Positions 54,753 through 60,207 of a stretch of DNA of 64,000 nt are shown here, in pieces. The position numbers were made by a program, and so were the translations under genes. Numbering within the stretch: the first letter of the stretch is position 1; each line of letters starts with the position of its first letter. The stretch spans positions 62,001 to 126,000 of the forward strand of contig SVPA01000002.1 of NCBI GenBank assembly GCA_015066085.1, in the 5' to 3' direction. Origin of the DNA: Oscillospiraceae bacterium (GTDB lineage Bacteria > Bacillota > Clostridia > Oscillospirales > Acutalibacteraceae). The notes under the pieces are model-generated. The model was not told where the DNA came from. It ran no database searches and saw only the letters and a list, made by a program, of their open reading frames with translations.

Positions 54753-54797
54753 AAACGGCCATACTTATCATAGAACTCTATGAAAGGATGGCCGTTT
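54753..54797 (+). promoter_or_regulatory. Hairpin between radC and the helical-bundle gene
   Basis: AAACGGCCAT (54753-54762) pairs with ATGGCCGTTT (54788-54797), and inside it CATAGA/CTATG can pair too. It ends exactly at the next ATG and encloses the AAAGGAT ribosome-binding site. Acts either as radC terminator or as a translation switch. Confidence 0.55.
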
Positions 54798-55232
54798 ATG
54801 ATAGAACAGGATACAATTAAACTGCTCAGAGAATGTGATGCAGGGGTAAAAATGGGGACCGAGTCGATAGAAGATGTTATTGATAAGGTAAAGTCGTCTT
54901 CCCTTAGAAAATACCTTTCCGATTGCAAGGTGGAGCACGAAAAACTCAACACCGAAATTCAAAACTTGCTGGATAAATATAAGGATGAGGGTAAAGACCC
55001 AAATCCTATCGCAAAGGGAATGTCCTGGATGAAGACAAATATGAAACTTGCTATGGATAGTACCGACGAAACCATTGCCGACCTTATGACCGACGGTTGC
55101 AATATGGGGGTAAAATCTTTAAACCGTTACCTTAATGAGTATGAAGCCGCCGACGAGGTTTCAAAAGACATCTGCAAACGCCTTATAAATTTAGAAGAGC
55201 GACTCGCCGAAGACATCAGAAAATACCTGTAA
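54798..55232 (+). CDS. Ferritin-like helical-bundle protein of unknown function
   Basis: 144 residues from ATG 54798. Almost wholly helical, with the spacing of a four-helix bundle: LLRECDAGVKMGTESIEDVIDKV, SLRKYLSDCKVEHEKLNTEIQNLL, SWMKTNMKLAMDSTDETIADLMTDGCNMGVKSLNRYL, DEVSKDICKRLINLEERLAEDIRKYL. It resembles the ferritin-like DUF2383/PA2169 type, but the E-x6-Y/E-x2-H metal pattern is incomplete. I cannot assign a function. It ends at a strong terminator. Confidence 0.65.
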   Translation: MIEQDTIKLLRECDAGVKMGTESIEDVIDKVKSSSLRKYLSDCKVEHEKLNTEIQNLLDKYKDEGKDPNPIAKGMSWMKTNMKLAMDSTDETIADLMTDGCNMGVKSLNRYLNEYEAADEVSKDICKRLINLEERLAEDIRKYL

Positions 55233-55257
55233 AAAAACGCCCGTCAGGGCGTTTTTT
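55232..55257. terminator. Bidirectional terminator between helical-bundle gene and sleC-like gene
   Basis: AAAAAACGCCC (55232-55242) pairs with GGGCGTTTTTT (55247-55257), loop GTCA. Confidence 0.9.
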
Positions 55258-56611
55258 ATGTTTCGGTTGCAACTAAAAAGTCATACTGTTTTGCAATCTC
55301 GTTCCAGGTAACTGCCGAAACCGCACCGCTTGGTTCAATCCCGAACAGACGCTGAAAGGTCTGCACGGCGTTTTCGGTCTGTTCCCCGAAATATCCCGTA
55401 ACCGGAATTTTCGGAATATCGTTTATATAGTCTGCAATAAAACTTAAATAGGTCTGAAGGTCGGTGACCGCCTGACCTCTCATTCCCTCGCTTAAAACAT
55501 ACCCGGGGTATAGTTTTGCGCTTACTCCGTAAAAATCCGACGGAATAGCACTTACCGTGTTTATATAAACTTCGCTTAATTTGTTCCAGGTTTCTCTGCC
55601 GACAATACCGTCGGGAATAAGCCCGTAAAACTCCTGAAAGGCTCTGACCGCGTCTGCCGTTGTGCTGTCGTAAACTCCCGTAATCGGTACAATGTTAAAA
55701 GCCCCGTTAAAATAAGCGATAACGCTTAAATAATACTGAATAAGCCGAACGGGAGTACCGGTTGAGCCAATCTGTAAAAGGTTTTCGTAAGGAACCTGTG
55801 CTTCCTGCAAAGTGACCCCCTCGCTTATAAGTTCGGATAGGTTTTTAACCCCGACATAATAGCGTTTGATTCGGTACCAGGTGGCTTTGTCAACCTCACC
55901 CGTCTGATTAAGATTGAAAATTTGCTGAAAACTTCTGACCGCCGCCTCGGTCTGTGTGCCGAAAACTCCGTTTGGGTCGTCAATGTTTGGAATAGCGGGG
56001 TAATTTCTCCTTATTCTGTTAAGTTCGTCCTGAATGGTTTCAACGTCGTTTCCCGAATCGCCTATTCTCAGAGGAGTCCCCGGGTATGACTCGGGAATAT
56101 CTTCAACGGGAGCGTCGTTTATTATATCTATATCCTCGCCGTAATATCTTTGTAAAATCTGATAGGGGGTAAGCCCCGAATTCGCAAGGTCAACCGTACC
56201 CCATTGGGACAGTCCCGCACAGGTAGATGTCGTCCCGTTACAGAACTGCGTAAAAAGGGGATTAACCGTTCCTTGCCGTACTACATAGTCGTTAAAAAGT
56301 TCGTCAACTATATTGCTTATGTTCTCAAAAATATCTCGGTCTTTAACAAAAGCCTGGTCAAATGCGGTTGAATTTGTAATATCAAAATCGTACCCGCGGG
56401 AGGGGTACCACTCGTTATAAATTCGGTTCAGTGCATAGGTAGTAATAGCGTAAATATTCGCCCGAAGAGCATTTTCAGGCCAGTTAGGATATATCTCGCT
56501 CGATGCAACATTCTTAACATAATCGGCAAAAGGAACGGTTACATTTTCTGCCGGGGAATCGGGCGGACCCAAATGCACCGTAATGTTTTCGGGTATGGTC
56601 TGAATCGGCAT
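55256..56611 (-). CDS. SleC-like spore cortex-lytic enzyme, catalytic part with three peptidoglycan-binding domains
   Basis: 451 residues without signal peptide. The first 160 match the SpoIID-like catalytic region of clostridial SleC: IPENITVHLGPP, VPFADYVKNVASSEIYPNW (catalytic Glu probably E39, parallel to AAEMPA of SpoIID), SRGYDFDITNST, CNGTTSTCAGLSQWG. Three PG_binding_1 domains follow at about 180-255 (LRIGDSGNDVETIQ), 283-355 (LQIGSTGTPVRLIQ) and 373-447 (LSEGMRGQAVTDLQ), where SleC as I recall it has one. The SleC pro-region is missing and is encoded by the preceding gene, 11 nt upstream. Likely degrades cortex during germination. Confidence 0.82.
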   Translation of the reverse strand: MPIQTIPENITVHLGPPDSPAENVTVPFADYVKNVASSEIYPNWPENALRANIYAITTYALNRIYNEWYPSRGYDFDITNSTAFDQAFVKDRDIFENISNIVDELFNDYVVRQGTVNPLFTQFCNGTTSTCAGLSQWGTVDLANSGLTPYQILQRYYGEDIDIINDAPVEDIPESYPGTPLRIGDSGNDVETIQDELNRIRRNYPAIPNIDDPNGVFGTQTEAAVRSFQQIFNLNQTGEVDKATWYRIKRYYVGVKNLSELISEGVTLQEAQVPYENLLQIGSTGTPVRLIQYYLSVIAYFNGAFNIVPITGVYDSTTADAVRAFQEFYGLIPDGIVGRETWNKLSEVYINTVSAIPSDFYGVSAKLYPGYVLSEGMRGQAVTDLQTYLSFIADYINDIPKIPVTGYFGEQTENAVQTFQRLFGIEPSGAVSAVTWNEIAKQYDFLVATET

Positions 56612-56622
56612 ATAAAAACCTC

Positions 56623-57138
56623 CTATAAAGTATAGTTTTCAAACTCGTCTATAATTATAGGACGGTTTTGTTCAATCTGACTGGTCATCGGTTCAAGATT
56701 TATATTTTGAACAGAGGTAATCTTGTCAAATACCGCAACATTATAGTTTAAGTTGGTTTTAAACCCGTCCTCGACAGTGCGGATATTATAGTAGGAATAA
56801 GGTCGCTCGGTAGGGTCGGGGGTCTCGGTTAAAACAGAGGACGGCGCCTCAAGGCGAATAGGCGGAGTTTTACCGCTTCTATCGGTTACCTCTTCGGCAA
56901 TAACGGTCATATTCTCTTCGCTTCCCGTAAACACTGTAACCCTTGCCCCGTTTATCGGGTAAAGCCCTCTGACCGATGTAACATTTACGACAAGATATCC
57001 CATTCCCGTCATATCTTCGCTGTTTTCAGGAGCCTGTGTAACGGTGGTAACTTCGGGAGTGTTTTGTGTCGGCAAAGAGGCCGATGCCCTCATCGTTCTC
57101 ATTTCCTGTATGTATTTGTCAAATAAAGATTTGTCCAT
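56623..57138 (-). CDS. Stand-alone SleC pro-domain-like protein
   Basis: 171 residues. After a short polar N-terminus (1-45) comes a beta-sandwich-like domain: MGYLVVNVTSVRGLYPINGARVTVF, TDRSGKTPPIRLEAP, PYSYYNIRTVEDGFKTNLNYNVAVFDKITSVQNINLEPM. This matches the N-terminal part of SleC that precedes the catalytic region and is removed by Csp proteases at germination (from memory of SleC, not a search). Alternative label: carboxypeptidase regulatory-like domain. No signal peptide. First gene of a two-gene operon with the catalytic protein; divergent from the ger operon. Confidence 0.72.
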   Translation of the reverse strand: MDKSLFDKYIQEMRTMRASASLPTQNTPEVTTVTQAPENSEDMTGMGYLVVNVTSVRGLYPINGARVTVFTGSEENMTVIAEEVTDRSGKTPPIRLEAPSSVLTETPDPTERPYSYYNIRTVEDGFKTNLNYNVAVFDKITSVQNINLEPMTSQIEQNRPIIIDEFENYTL

Positions 57139-57169
57139 AATTTTTCTCCTTTAGATTATTCTCATTACA

Positions 57170-57197
57170 TATAATATGCGCAAAACCTCCGAATAGT
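57170..57197 (-). promoter_or_regulatory. Candidate sigma-K-type promoter of the sleC-like pair
   Basis: On the minus strand, AC (57197-57196), a 17-nt spacer and CATATTATA (57178-57170) fit the late mother-cell pattern AC-N16/17-CATANNNTA. The consensus is loose, so this is tentative. Confidence 0.3.
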
Positions 57198-57234
57198 TCT
57201 AACTTAAGAGCAAATAATAACTATGGTGAAGAAT

Positions 57235-58689
57235 ATGGAAAACAAATATTTTTTAGCAAGTTTACCCGATAACATAAAAATTATAGAACAACTGTTTAGT
57301 GGGGATTCGGTGCTTCGTAAAAGGGAGTTTAGTTTTTGTGGGACTAAAGCCTGTCTTTTTTATTTTGACGGAATGGTAAGTGTCGAACTCATAAATGAAT
57401 CAATAATAAAACCCCTTGCTATTGCTGACTTTGTTGACGAAAGTCAGCCTATTGCAGATTTTATCTGCGAAAAACTTCTCTTTGCAAGTGAAATAAAAAA
57501 GACCTCGGTTATATCGGAGGCGGTTTCTTCTCTGCTTTACGGGGATACTCTGATTCTTCTTGAAAAAAGTCATACCGCTATAACCGTAAACAGTAAAGGT
57601 TGGCGGACAAGAGGAATTTCAGAGCCCGAAAACGAAAGGGTTCTGGAGGGCCCGAGAGAGGGATTCGACGAAGCGGCAATGTTTAATGTTGCAATGATTA
57701 GAAGACGGCTTCAAACCCCTGACTTTACTGCCGAAATTACCCGAATAGGAAGAAAAACCAATACTATTATTTTTATCTGTTATTTAAAATCTCTTGTAAA
57801 CCGAGAAACCTTAAGAGAACTCAAAATGCGTCTTTCAAAGATTGATATAGATTCAATTTTAGATTCCCACTATATTACCGAGCAAATAAGGGACAACAAA
57901 AATTCTCTTTTTAAAACGGTCGGCACAACCGAAAGACCCGATGTAGTTGCCGCCAGACTGCTTGAAGGCAGAATTGCTCTTGTAGTAGATGCAACCCCCG
58001 TGGTAATAACCGTACCCTATCTCTTTTCCGAAAATTTTCAGTCGGATGAGGACTACTATACGGGCTATCTTATTGCGTCGGCGGGAAGACTTATGAGAAT
58101 TCTTGCCTTTTTTCTTTCGGTAACCGTCCCCGCCCTTTATATAGCCTTTACAACCCATCATTTTCAGTTTCTTCCTGCCGCCTTTGCCCAAACCGTTTCG
58201 GTTGCCCGTGAGGGTGTCCCTTTTTCAACCTTAGTCGAAGGACTTTTGCTCTGCCTTATCTTTGAAATTTTAAGGGAAACGGGGGTTCGTATGCCCCAAA
58301 GCGTCGGCCACGCTCTTAGTATAGTAGGCGGTTTGGTCGTTGGTCAGGCTGCGGTTGAGGCGAGAATAATAAGCGCCCCAATGCTGATAGCGGTTGCCCT
58401 TTCGGGAATCTGCGGGCTAATGGTGCCCCGCCTTCGCTCTGCCGTTTTTTATCTTCGTTTCGCCTTTATCTTTATTTCGGCTCTTTTTGGTTTTTATGGA
58501 ATACTGCTCTTATGGACGGCGGTTTTAATCAGAATTTTAACCCTTAAATCAATGGGTGTTGACTCGACTATATCTCTTGACACTTTGAGCCTTCAAAGTT
58601 TTAAGGATGTTTTTGTAAGGGCAAGTTGGACAAAAATGTATACCCGTCCCAAAATTCAGAAAAACAATAGTATAAGGAAGAAAATATGA
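57235..58689 (+). CDS. Spore germinant receptor subunit A (GerA family)
   Basis: 484 residues from ATG 57235 (GGTGAAG just upstream). Soluble N-terminal half with GerA signatures (TPDFTAEITRIGRKTNT, then EGRIALVVDATPVVITVPYLFSENFQSDEDYY) and about five membrane helices in the C-terminal half (ILAFFLSVTVPALYIAFTTHH, EILRETGVRMPQSVGHALSIVGGLVVGQAAVEA). In the spore inner membrane these subunits bind nutrient germinants and form the ion-conducting channel. The order A-C-B matches the gerK-type arrangement. Germinant unknown. Confidence 0.92.
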   Translation: MENKYFLASLPDNIKIIEQLFSGDSVLRKREFSFCGTKACLFYFDGMVSVELINESIIKPLAIADFVDESQPIADFICEKLLFASEIKKTSVISEAVSSLLYGDTLILLEKSHTAITVNSKGWRTRGISEPENERVLEGPREGFDEAAMFNVAMIRRRLQTPDFTAEITRIGRKTNTIIFICYLKSLVNRETLRELKMRLSKIDIDSILDSHYITEQIRDNKNSLFKTVGTTERPDVVAARLLEGRIALVVDATPVVITVPYLFSENFQSDEDYYTGYLIASAGRLMRILAFFLSVTVPALYIAFTTHHFQFLPAAFAQTVSVAREGVPFSTLVEGLLLCLIFEILRETGVRMPQSVGHALSIVGGLVVGQAAVEARIISAPMLIAVALSGICGLMVPRLRSAVFYLRFAFIFISALFGFYGILLLWTAVLIRILTLKSMGVDSTISLDTLSLQSFKDVFVRASWTKMYTRPKIQKNNSIRKKI

Positions 58690-59321
58690 AGAAGACAGTT
58701 ATTATTTTGTGCCTTTTGTTTTTGTGCGGTTGCTCTTATACCGAACCCGATGCCGTGTTTACCGTTTCTGCGGTCGGTTTTTCGGTTGAAAGCGGCGAAA
58801 CGGTAGCCTATGTTCAGTTTATAAATGCTTCGGAAAAAAACAGTTTAGTCAGCCCTACCTTTACCGTAAAGGGAAGCGGAGAGGACGAAAAACAGGCAAT
58901 AGATGAGGTAAGAGCAAAACTATCTAAAAAACCCTCATTTTCCCACTGTCGCATTATAGCGGTAAGCAACCGACTGAATCTTTCTGACCTCGGTGCCGTT
59001 CTTGGACTTTGCAGCGACCTTGGCGTTCCGCTGAGAGCCCCTGTTGTTTGCTGTAACAATATAAACGAACTTTTTAATAATGAATTGCTCTCTTCAGGGC
59101 AAGAAATTGAGGGGCTTATCCGCCAAAATGCCGAATATTTCGGTTACGGCGGACATACTGCTCTGTTTGAAATTCAGACTGCTCTGCTTGTAAATGAGGG
59201 TAAATTCGGTCTTCCTATCTTAAAAACCGACCGTGACAGCGTTTTTGTAGAGGGGCTTTATTATTTTACAAACGGTCTGGCGTCGATTGGGGGTAATCAA
59301 AATGACAAGGTCAGTGGATAA
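58686..59321 (+). CDS. Short GerC-type lipoprotein subunit of germinant receptor
   Basis: 211 residues, against about 370-400 for full GerC proteins. A lipoprotein signal (IILCLLFLCGC, modified Cys probably C16) is followed by the N-terminal GerC domain (SAVGFSVESGETVAYVQF, FSHCRIIAVSNRLN, LGVPLRAPVVCC). The C-terminal GerC domain is missing; the frame stops inside the start of gerB and no remnant is left elsewhere. Overlaps gerA by 4 nt and gerB by 20 nt. Confidence 0.8.
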   Translation: MKKTVIILCLLFLCGCSYTEPDAVFTVSAVGFSVESGETVAYVQFINASEKNSLVSPTFTVKGSGEDEKQAIDEVRAKLSKKPSFSHCRIIAVSNRLNLSDLGAVLGLCSDLGVPLRAPVVCCNNINELFNNELLSSGQEIEGLIRQNAEYFGYGGHTALFEIQTALLVNEGKFGLPILKTDRDSVFVEGLYYFTNGLASIGGNQNDKVSG

Positions 59322-60207
59322 CCGCCGTTTTTTTATGCTTGCGGTTATTGCCGTAATAGGAGATATGCTTCTCCTTTTTTCTTTTACCGAAAACACCGCA
59401 GACGACATAATAGGTCTTTTGCTTTCGGCGGTTTTGGCAACCTTGGTTGCCGTTTTGTTTAAAGGCTGTGCCGAAATAATGCAAAAAAGTAAATTTTATA
59501 ATAATAGGCTTGTCTTTGGAGTAATCTGTGTATCCTTGTGTTTGGTGGTTCTGATTACTGCTCTTTATTGCGTAATGAATTTTTCAAACTATGCCTCAAA
59601 TGTTATGCTCGGCACAGAAGAAATTCTTATAACATTTGTGTCTTTTTCGGTTTTAGTTACTGTTTTGGGCTTCTCGAAAAAAGATATTCTGCTTAAACTT
59701 TCTCTTCTGCTCTTTTCGGCGGTTTTCTTGCTCATTATTTTTATGTTTGCCTTTTCGACCGCCTTTATGGAGGTAAAGTATTTGATTCCCTATAAAGTGC
59801 CGACCTTCAGCGGTTCTTTTTCCGCCTTTCTTACAAGTTTTCCGGTCTTTTTCTCAACCGCTGTGCCTTTAACCGTAATAGGAATCAGGGTAAAGAAAAG
59901 ATATTTTGCTCTTTCTTATGTATTAGGTATAGCCTTGACAGTAATCGCTTTTATAAACATTCTTTCGGTCTTCGGAAGTGAATTTGCCTCAACCCTTGAA
60001 TTTCCTTATTCAAAAGCGGTCTCCACCGCATCGCTTGGTCACATTTTTTCAAGGTTGGATATTTTTTTGTACTGTGTATGTTTTTTTACCTGTCTTATAA
60101 AGGCTTCGGTTTGTGTGAGTTCTTTTTCTTTTCTTACCGCTAAATTTTTAAATAATTTATTGAAAAAAATTAATATTTTTATTGAAAAGAAGAAAAAGTT
60201 GTGGTAA
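59302..60207 (+). CDS. Germinant receptor subunit B (GerB family, APC-type permease fold)
   Basis: 301 residues from ATG 59302 with GGGGGT in front; the longer frame lies in the gerC end. About nine hydrophobic helices, shorter than typical GerB (about 360). Helices of note: FFMLAVIAVIGDMLLLFSFT, YLIPYKVPTFSGSFSAFLTSFPVFF, LGHIFSRLDIFLYCVCFFTCLI. GerB subunits resemble amino-acid transporters and help recognise germinants. Ends in a very basic, Asn/Lys-rich tail. Last gene of the ger operon. Confidence 0.82.
   Translation: MTRSVDNRRFFMLAVIAVIGDMLLLFSFTENTADDIIGLLLSAVLATLVAVLFKGCAEIMQKSKFYNNRLVFGVICVSLCLVVLITALYCVMNFSNYASNVMLGTEEILITFVSFSVLVTVLGFSKKDILLKLSLLLFSAVFLLIIFMFAFSTAFMEVKYLIPYKVPTFSGSFSAFLTSFPVFFSTAVPLTVIGIRVKKRYFALSYVLGIALTVIAFINILSVFGSEFASTLEFPYSKAVSTASLGHIFSRLDIFLYCVCFFTCLIKASVCVSSFSFLTAKFLNNLLKKINIFIEKKKKLW

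Follow-up and report, generated by a model that had tools for sequence, protein, structure and literature searches.

A two-gene SleC, with a separate pre-domain protein and no detectable Csp protease, beside a germinant receptor operon in an Oscillospiraceae genome

The sleC-ger locus

The window analysed here is a stretch of 64,000 nucleotides from an Oscillospiraceae bacterium (assembly GCA_015066085.1, contig SVPA01000002.1, positions 62,001 to 126,000). Its minus strand carries two adjacent genes, referred to below as gene 1 and gene 2, which encode proteins of 171 and 451 aa (Table 1). A preliminary description of the window had placed these ORFs 11 nt apart, the first with its own stop and the second with its own GGAGG-type site, and the sequence agrees on every point, with 11 nt separating the gene 1 stop from the gene 2 ATG. 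The GGAGG of gene 2 shares the last base of the TAG stop of gene 1 (56623-56625), an overlap that suggests translational coupling of the two genes. As they lie in different frames, the junction is not the scar of a single stop. A gene for a DUF2383 (PF09537) protein (54780-55232, plus strand) converges on the pair and is separated from the pair's 3' end by 23 nt.

Table 1. Features of the sleC pair and the neighbouring germinant receptor genes (positions in the window)
Feature	Position	Strand	Basis or remark
Gene 1, SleC pre-domain protein, 171 aa	56623..57138	-	phmmer to 9h68_A, profile of relatives, one-to-one co-occurrence with gene 2
Gene 2, cortex-lytic enzyme, 451 aa	55256..56611	-	SpoIID-like catalytic domain and three peptidoglycan-binding domains
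Predicted transthyretin/CnaB-like beta-sandwich, gene 1 aa 42-151	56686..57015	-	Profile boundaries; AlphaFold model of a relative and Foldseek
Gene 1 C-terminal tail, aa 152-171	56626..56685	-	By-eye alignment with start of pro region (ELIFDIGEHTL in C. difficile)
Shine-Dalgarno of gene 1, AAAGGAGA	57145..57152	-	Sequence
Shine-Dalgarno of gene 2, GGAGG	56619..56623	-	Sequence
Glu39 codon of gene 2	56495..56497	-	Same residue in 23/23 aligned relatives
-10-like element GCATATTATA upstream of gene 1, sigma-E/K type	57170..57179	-	CATA spacing in relatives
GAATAGT (ACTATTC on the other strand), -35-like for gerA	57191..57197	+	8/9 species of the genus
-10-like element CAAATAATA for the gerA operon, sigma-G type	57211..57219	+	Comparison across species
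gerA, germinant receptor A subunit	57223..58689	+	PF03323, 500 bits
gerC, N-terminal domain only	58686..59321	+	PF25198, 47 bits
gerB, receptor permease subunit	59287..60207	+	Weak, TIGR00912 E 1e-6

The pair stands head-to-head with gerA in seven of the eight assessable species of the window genus. At seven other loci gerA follows directly downstream on the same strand, and most loci have no gerA within their flanks. The GerC protein of the window is only about 211 aa long, a short form also seen in four relatives of the genus (L215-L218).

The intergenic region between sleC and gerA measures 84 bp and holds a conserved ACTATTC/GAATAGT. On the sleC side, CATA occurs 19 nt from ACTATTC in 7/8 species having the element, and the gerA side carries a CAAA(T/C)A(A/C)TA-like element. 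Judged by sporulation sigma-factor consensus, these elements look like a mother-cell-type promoter for sleC and a forespore-type promoter for gerA, set back to back. With two promoter types, receptor and enzyme would be neighbours in the genome yet are probably made in different compartments. The earlier proposal that receptor and effector form one module holds only for their neighbourhood, in this genus.

Identity of the two proteins

The 451-aa protein matches SpoIID (PF08486) in Pfam with 30.6 bits, against a cut-off of 23, and its three PG_binding_1 stretches (169.6 bits) bear out the three binding domains first read from the sequence. Residues 5-260 match PDB chain 9h68_A with an E-value of 5.5e-72. 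Its Glu39 lines up with the AAE glutamate of the SpoIID that this genome also encodes, and by analogy with that enzyme we take Glu39 to be the catalytic residue.

The 171-aa protein matched no family in Pfam or NCBIfam. With phmmer, residues 47-153 match residues 61-169 of the same chain (E 4.7e-4), and a profile built from relatives recovers the protein at E about 1e-40. This match to the SleC N-terminus favours the initial observation that one SleC-type protein is encoded as two genes, since both ORFs match a single chain in the order expected for SleC parts. Entry 9h68 is described as C. difficile zymogenic SleC, and its chain carries SRQSELI, the stretch in which PMC6464247 places the YabG cut after R119, which agrees with that identity.

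For mapping, R119 of C. difficile SleC was set as chain residue 176 of 9h68. The 451-aa protein begins at about C. difficile SleC residue 157, and the 171-aa protein spans the PRE domain and continues into a tail, RPIIIDEFENYTL, which can be aligned with the beginning of the pro region, ELIFDIGEHTLYG; across relatives, Leu is the last residue of about half of the gene 1 tails. The PRE domain is predicted to adopt a transthyretin/CnaB-like fold (AlphaFold model of a relative, searched with Foldseek). When mapped on 9h68 and the canonical linkers, a segment like GTYPPKIPESNLKPLPPPTGFVV is absent between the two ORFs. By homology, the 171-aa ORF is a PRE domain homolog and not the inhibitory PRO-peptide, a candidate that the same mapping rules out. 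The preliminary description had called the small ORF pro-domain-like; the true pro-linker is instead the segment that is missing.

The N-terminus of gene 1 (57097-57138) encodes a helix-like motif, MDKxxFxKYIxEMR, found in the window genus and related genera. Behind it comes a low-complexity linker whose length varies greatly, reaching several hundred residues in some relatives. The short gene 1 homologs do not have the motif, so that the idea of a conserved N-terminal helix in every small protein was dropped, as only the window genus and some others possess it.

Distribution and age of the split

Every assessable species of the window genus carries the split form. Relatives and named genomes gave 105 assessable loci, 101 of them split and four fused (L025, L028, L029, L030), in a scan that kept the loci nearest the window and is thereby biased towards its clade. 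In the class-wide sample, Csp-negative SleC genomes are split in all but one case. Among the named carriers are Ruminococcus flavefaciens, Clostridium methylpentosum, Ructibacterium gallinarum and Sedimentibacter saalensis. The split is thus the usual SleC architecture in a large clade of Clostridia and not a peculiarity of the window strain, and the fused form is not the norm in close relatives. Of 60 relatives, 29 have the catalytic domain, and exactly these 29 have the small domain; the other 31 have neither.

The frame relations of gene 1 and gene 2 divide 47/32/22 among the 101 split loci; since all three relations are present, there is no common scar. A single in-frame stop separates the genes at 36 of these loci, and all three stop types are used. 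Read-through to a fused product was considered and rejected, given the different frames in the window and the mixture of stop types at the in-frame stops of relatives.

A tree of 82 catalytic domains was built by a quick method, in which the branch between split and fused forms has a support of only 81. In it, the 65 split rows need two changes, and the canonical fused SleCs group together in a single supported clade. The split forms are, on this catalytic-domain phylogeny, essentially one clade.

Downstream of the split pair, many relatives (L012, L013, L015, L019, L021, L022, L026, L027) have a third gene of about 172-256 aa with tandem peptidoglycan-binding domains. This gene was not found in the window genus.

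Linker and activating proteases

In the textbook clostridial germination route, a Csp protease acts on SleC. Canonical fused SleCs strongly conserve a linker, NYPPKIPE..KPLPPP..G.VVLPEPV, whose NYPPKIPE..KPLPPP..VVL pattern occurs in all canonical fused SleCs examined and in no split ones. From its place after the YabG site and before the catalytic domain, this linker should hold the Csp activation site, which in C. perfringens SleC we take to be the bond between Val149 and Val150.

YabG strips the PRE domain during sporulation, cutting C. difficile SleC after R119, and C. perfringens SleC is cut after R114 (PMC6464247). Once YabG has removed the PRE domain, C. difficile pro-SleC is inactive until Csp acts (PMC6464247, PMC10681294). 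Okamura et al. 2000, as cited in PMC3567191, reported the prepeptide of C. perfringens SleC to be needed to produce SleC from its precursor.

The window genome is 97% complete and contains SpoIVA. Searches of it gave no subtilase match (PF00082), no CspB prodomain (PF18425), no YabG (PF05582, with B. subtilis as positive control) and no SleB/CwlJ (Hydrolase_2, PF07486), the last domain also being absent from the gene 2 protein; these and the other absences reported here come from draft genomes and HMM first-look filters. Given no detectable subtilase, YabG or SleB/CwlJ, the sleC pair is, as far as such searches tell, the only recognisable cortex-lytic enzyme of this genome. The expectation that control would differ from Csp cleavage is upheld by the lack of subtilase, CspB prodomain and YabG matches. 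Split genomes of five further genera, each at least 90% complete, likewise gave no subtilases and no SleB/CwlJ.

Within the class sample, the same PF18425 search found the CspB prodomain in 8 of 29 SleC-positive genomes. The canonical fused SleC with linker occurs in all eight of these and in none of the other 21, a co-occurrence for which the Fisher tests ignore kinship. YabG is confined to Csp-positive genomes, five of the eight. YabG has been termed a genomic signature of endosporulation (PMC10681294). It is absent from the window genome and from all 60 relatives, though most of them carry SpoIVA.

Some Csp-positive genomes have a second, linker-less SleC paralog (L152, L153, L158). In genome G191, a csp cluster adjoins a canonical sleC (L204) and a split pair lies elsewhere (L208), while four other species of its genus have no csp and no canonical form and keep the split pair. 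This pattern looks like the gain of a csp-sleC cassette.

Possible roles of the pair in germination

Among genera with SpoIVA and good completeness, 5 have both SleC and SleB, 12 SleC only, 20 SleB only and 1 neither. This near-exclusive distribution among sporulating genera is the pattern that alternative cortex-lytic enzymes would give. In many gut Clostridia this enzyme, which probably degrades the inner wall of the spore at germination, is split and has neither the cleaved segment nor its proteases, so that their spores must have a different means of control over that degradation.

Our preferred reading, to which we give a probability of roughly 0.6, is a two-protein SleC that is not activated by Csp and whose pre-domain serves in trans as an obligate partner for folding, delivery or restraint. 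The 451-aa protein would be the cortex-lytic enzyme and the 171-aa protein its obligate, non-covalent partner, taking on in trans the function that the pre-domain has in cis, that is, being needed for functional enzyme. It may remain with the enzyme in the dormant spore. The pair would replace both Csp-activated SleC and SleB/CwlJ, so that cortex lysis would not be triggered by Csp cleavage; the trigger would presumably be release of the partner, a conformational change or degradation by some other route. We infer the physical association of the two proteins, their synthesis in the mother cell and the role in chaperoning, delivery or restraint. By analogy with the prepeptide in cis, an obligate pre-domain in trans would most simply continue the folding or delivery role, and it may hold the enzyme in check as well, in the way proposed for YpeB with SleB (PMC13393411). 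AlphaFold modelling of the read-through pair of a relative (L004) folded both domains, with no confident docking and no 9h68 arrangement. Against this reading there are also the five genera holding SleC and SleB and the linker-less paralogs in Csp-positive genomes, by which a linker-less form need not always be the germination enzyme.

The preliminary description had raised the possibility of inhibition in trans. On this reading the small protein would stay bound to the enzyme of the dormant spore as an inhibitor, and lysis would be activated at germination once it dissociates or is degraded. Obligate pairing of the small domain with the enzyme would suit such a lock, as would the alignment of the small protein's tail with the start of the pro region and the SleB/YpeB precedent (PMC13393411); without linker, Csp and YabG, some other restraint is also needed. 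However, in known SleC the PRE domain is not the lock, pro-SleC being inactive after its removal (PMC6464247, PMC10681294), and no docking over the active site is predicted for the relative's pair. Because removal of PRE in C. difficile does not activate SleC by itself, homology does not imply inhibition by PRE, and as the small ORF is homologous to PRE, inhibition in trans does not follow from it. We consider this reading unlikely. We also give a low probability to a cortex-lysis switch that works without activating cleavage of SleC in this large clade of gut Clostridia, whose SleC has neither the cleavable linker nor the two processing proteases. The separate pre-domain protein would then be a regulator in trans, and its release, tied to the germinant receptor or to the efflux of Ca-DPA, would start the lysis.

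Given its SpoIID-like catalytic domain, the pair might instead be a sporulation-time enzyme that remodels forespore peptidoglycan as SpoIID does. The extra multi-domain SleC paralogs of some Csp-positive genomes (L152, L153), comparable to SleC2 of C. botulinum Group II (PMC5083711), point the same way. For the window pair such a role is quite improbable, as the genome already has its own SpoIID, SleC and SleB almost exclude each other across sporulating genera, and the pair is linked directly to germinant-receptor genes in two different layouts.

A trivial break, in which a stop or frameshift recently split a fused sleC, finds a foothold in the few fused relatives but has a negligible probability, being refuted, as the preliminary description anticipated in seeing no frameshift scar, by more than 100 loci and all assessable species of the genus split in every frame relation, by the Shine-Dalgarno sites and conserved ends of split loci, and by a tree showing one old event.

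Comparison with known systems

The SleC proteins of C. difficile and C. perfringens contain the same succession of homologous parts as the window system, from pre-domain through catalytic domain to peptidoglycan-binding domain. They differ in being one pre-pro polypeptide, whereas the window system consists of two polypeptides, has no pro-linker and belongs to a genome with no detectable Csp or YabG. They also have one binding domain, against three in the window enzyme. Compared by described architecture only, SleC2a/b of C. botulinum Group II (698-792 aa, PMC5083711) resemble the window enzyme in having several binding domains, but each is one polypeptide. The linker-less fused forms (L025, L030, L152, L153, L161) have several binding domains and no NYPPKIPE linker, yet each of these too is a single polypeptide, unlike the split pair.

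SleB and YpeB of Bacillus, which are mutually required for stable incorporation into the spore (PMC13393411), may offer a parallel, in which an enzyme of cortex lysis has a partner of its own; the small protein would be the partner here. However, both the catalytic domain of SleB (Hydrolase_2, PF07486) and its partner are unrelated to those of the sleC pair. SleB is also produced in the forespore and then exported, while the promoter of the sleC pair appears to be of mother-cell type.

Searches of a largely open-access body of literature gave no account of a split SleC lacking both linker and Csp, and no paper linking SleC to spore germination and cortex in Oscillospirales. Split SleC is a widespread variant of a known enzyme family rather than a rare one. 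In a large set of spore-forming gut Clostridia SleC has no cleavage linker, Csp and YabG are absent, and SleB/CwlJ is often missing as well. The two-gene system makes the start of cortex lysis in these spores testable. Comparison with the canonical enzymes also separates two functions that have been lumped as 'pre-pro': the pre-domain is always retained, while the pro-linker is found only where Csp occurs.
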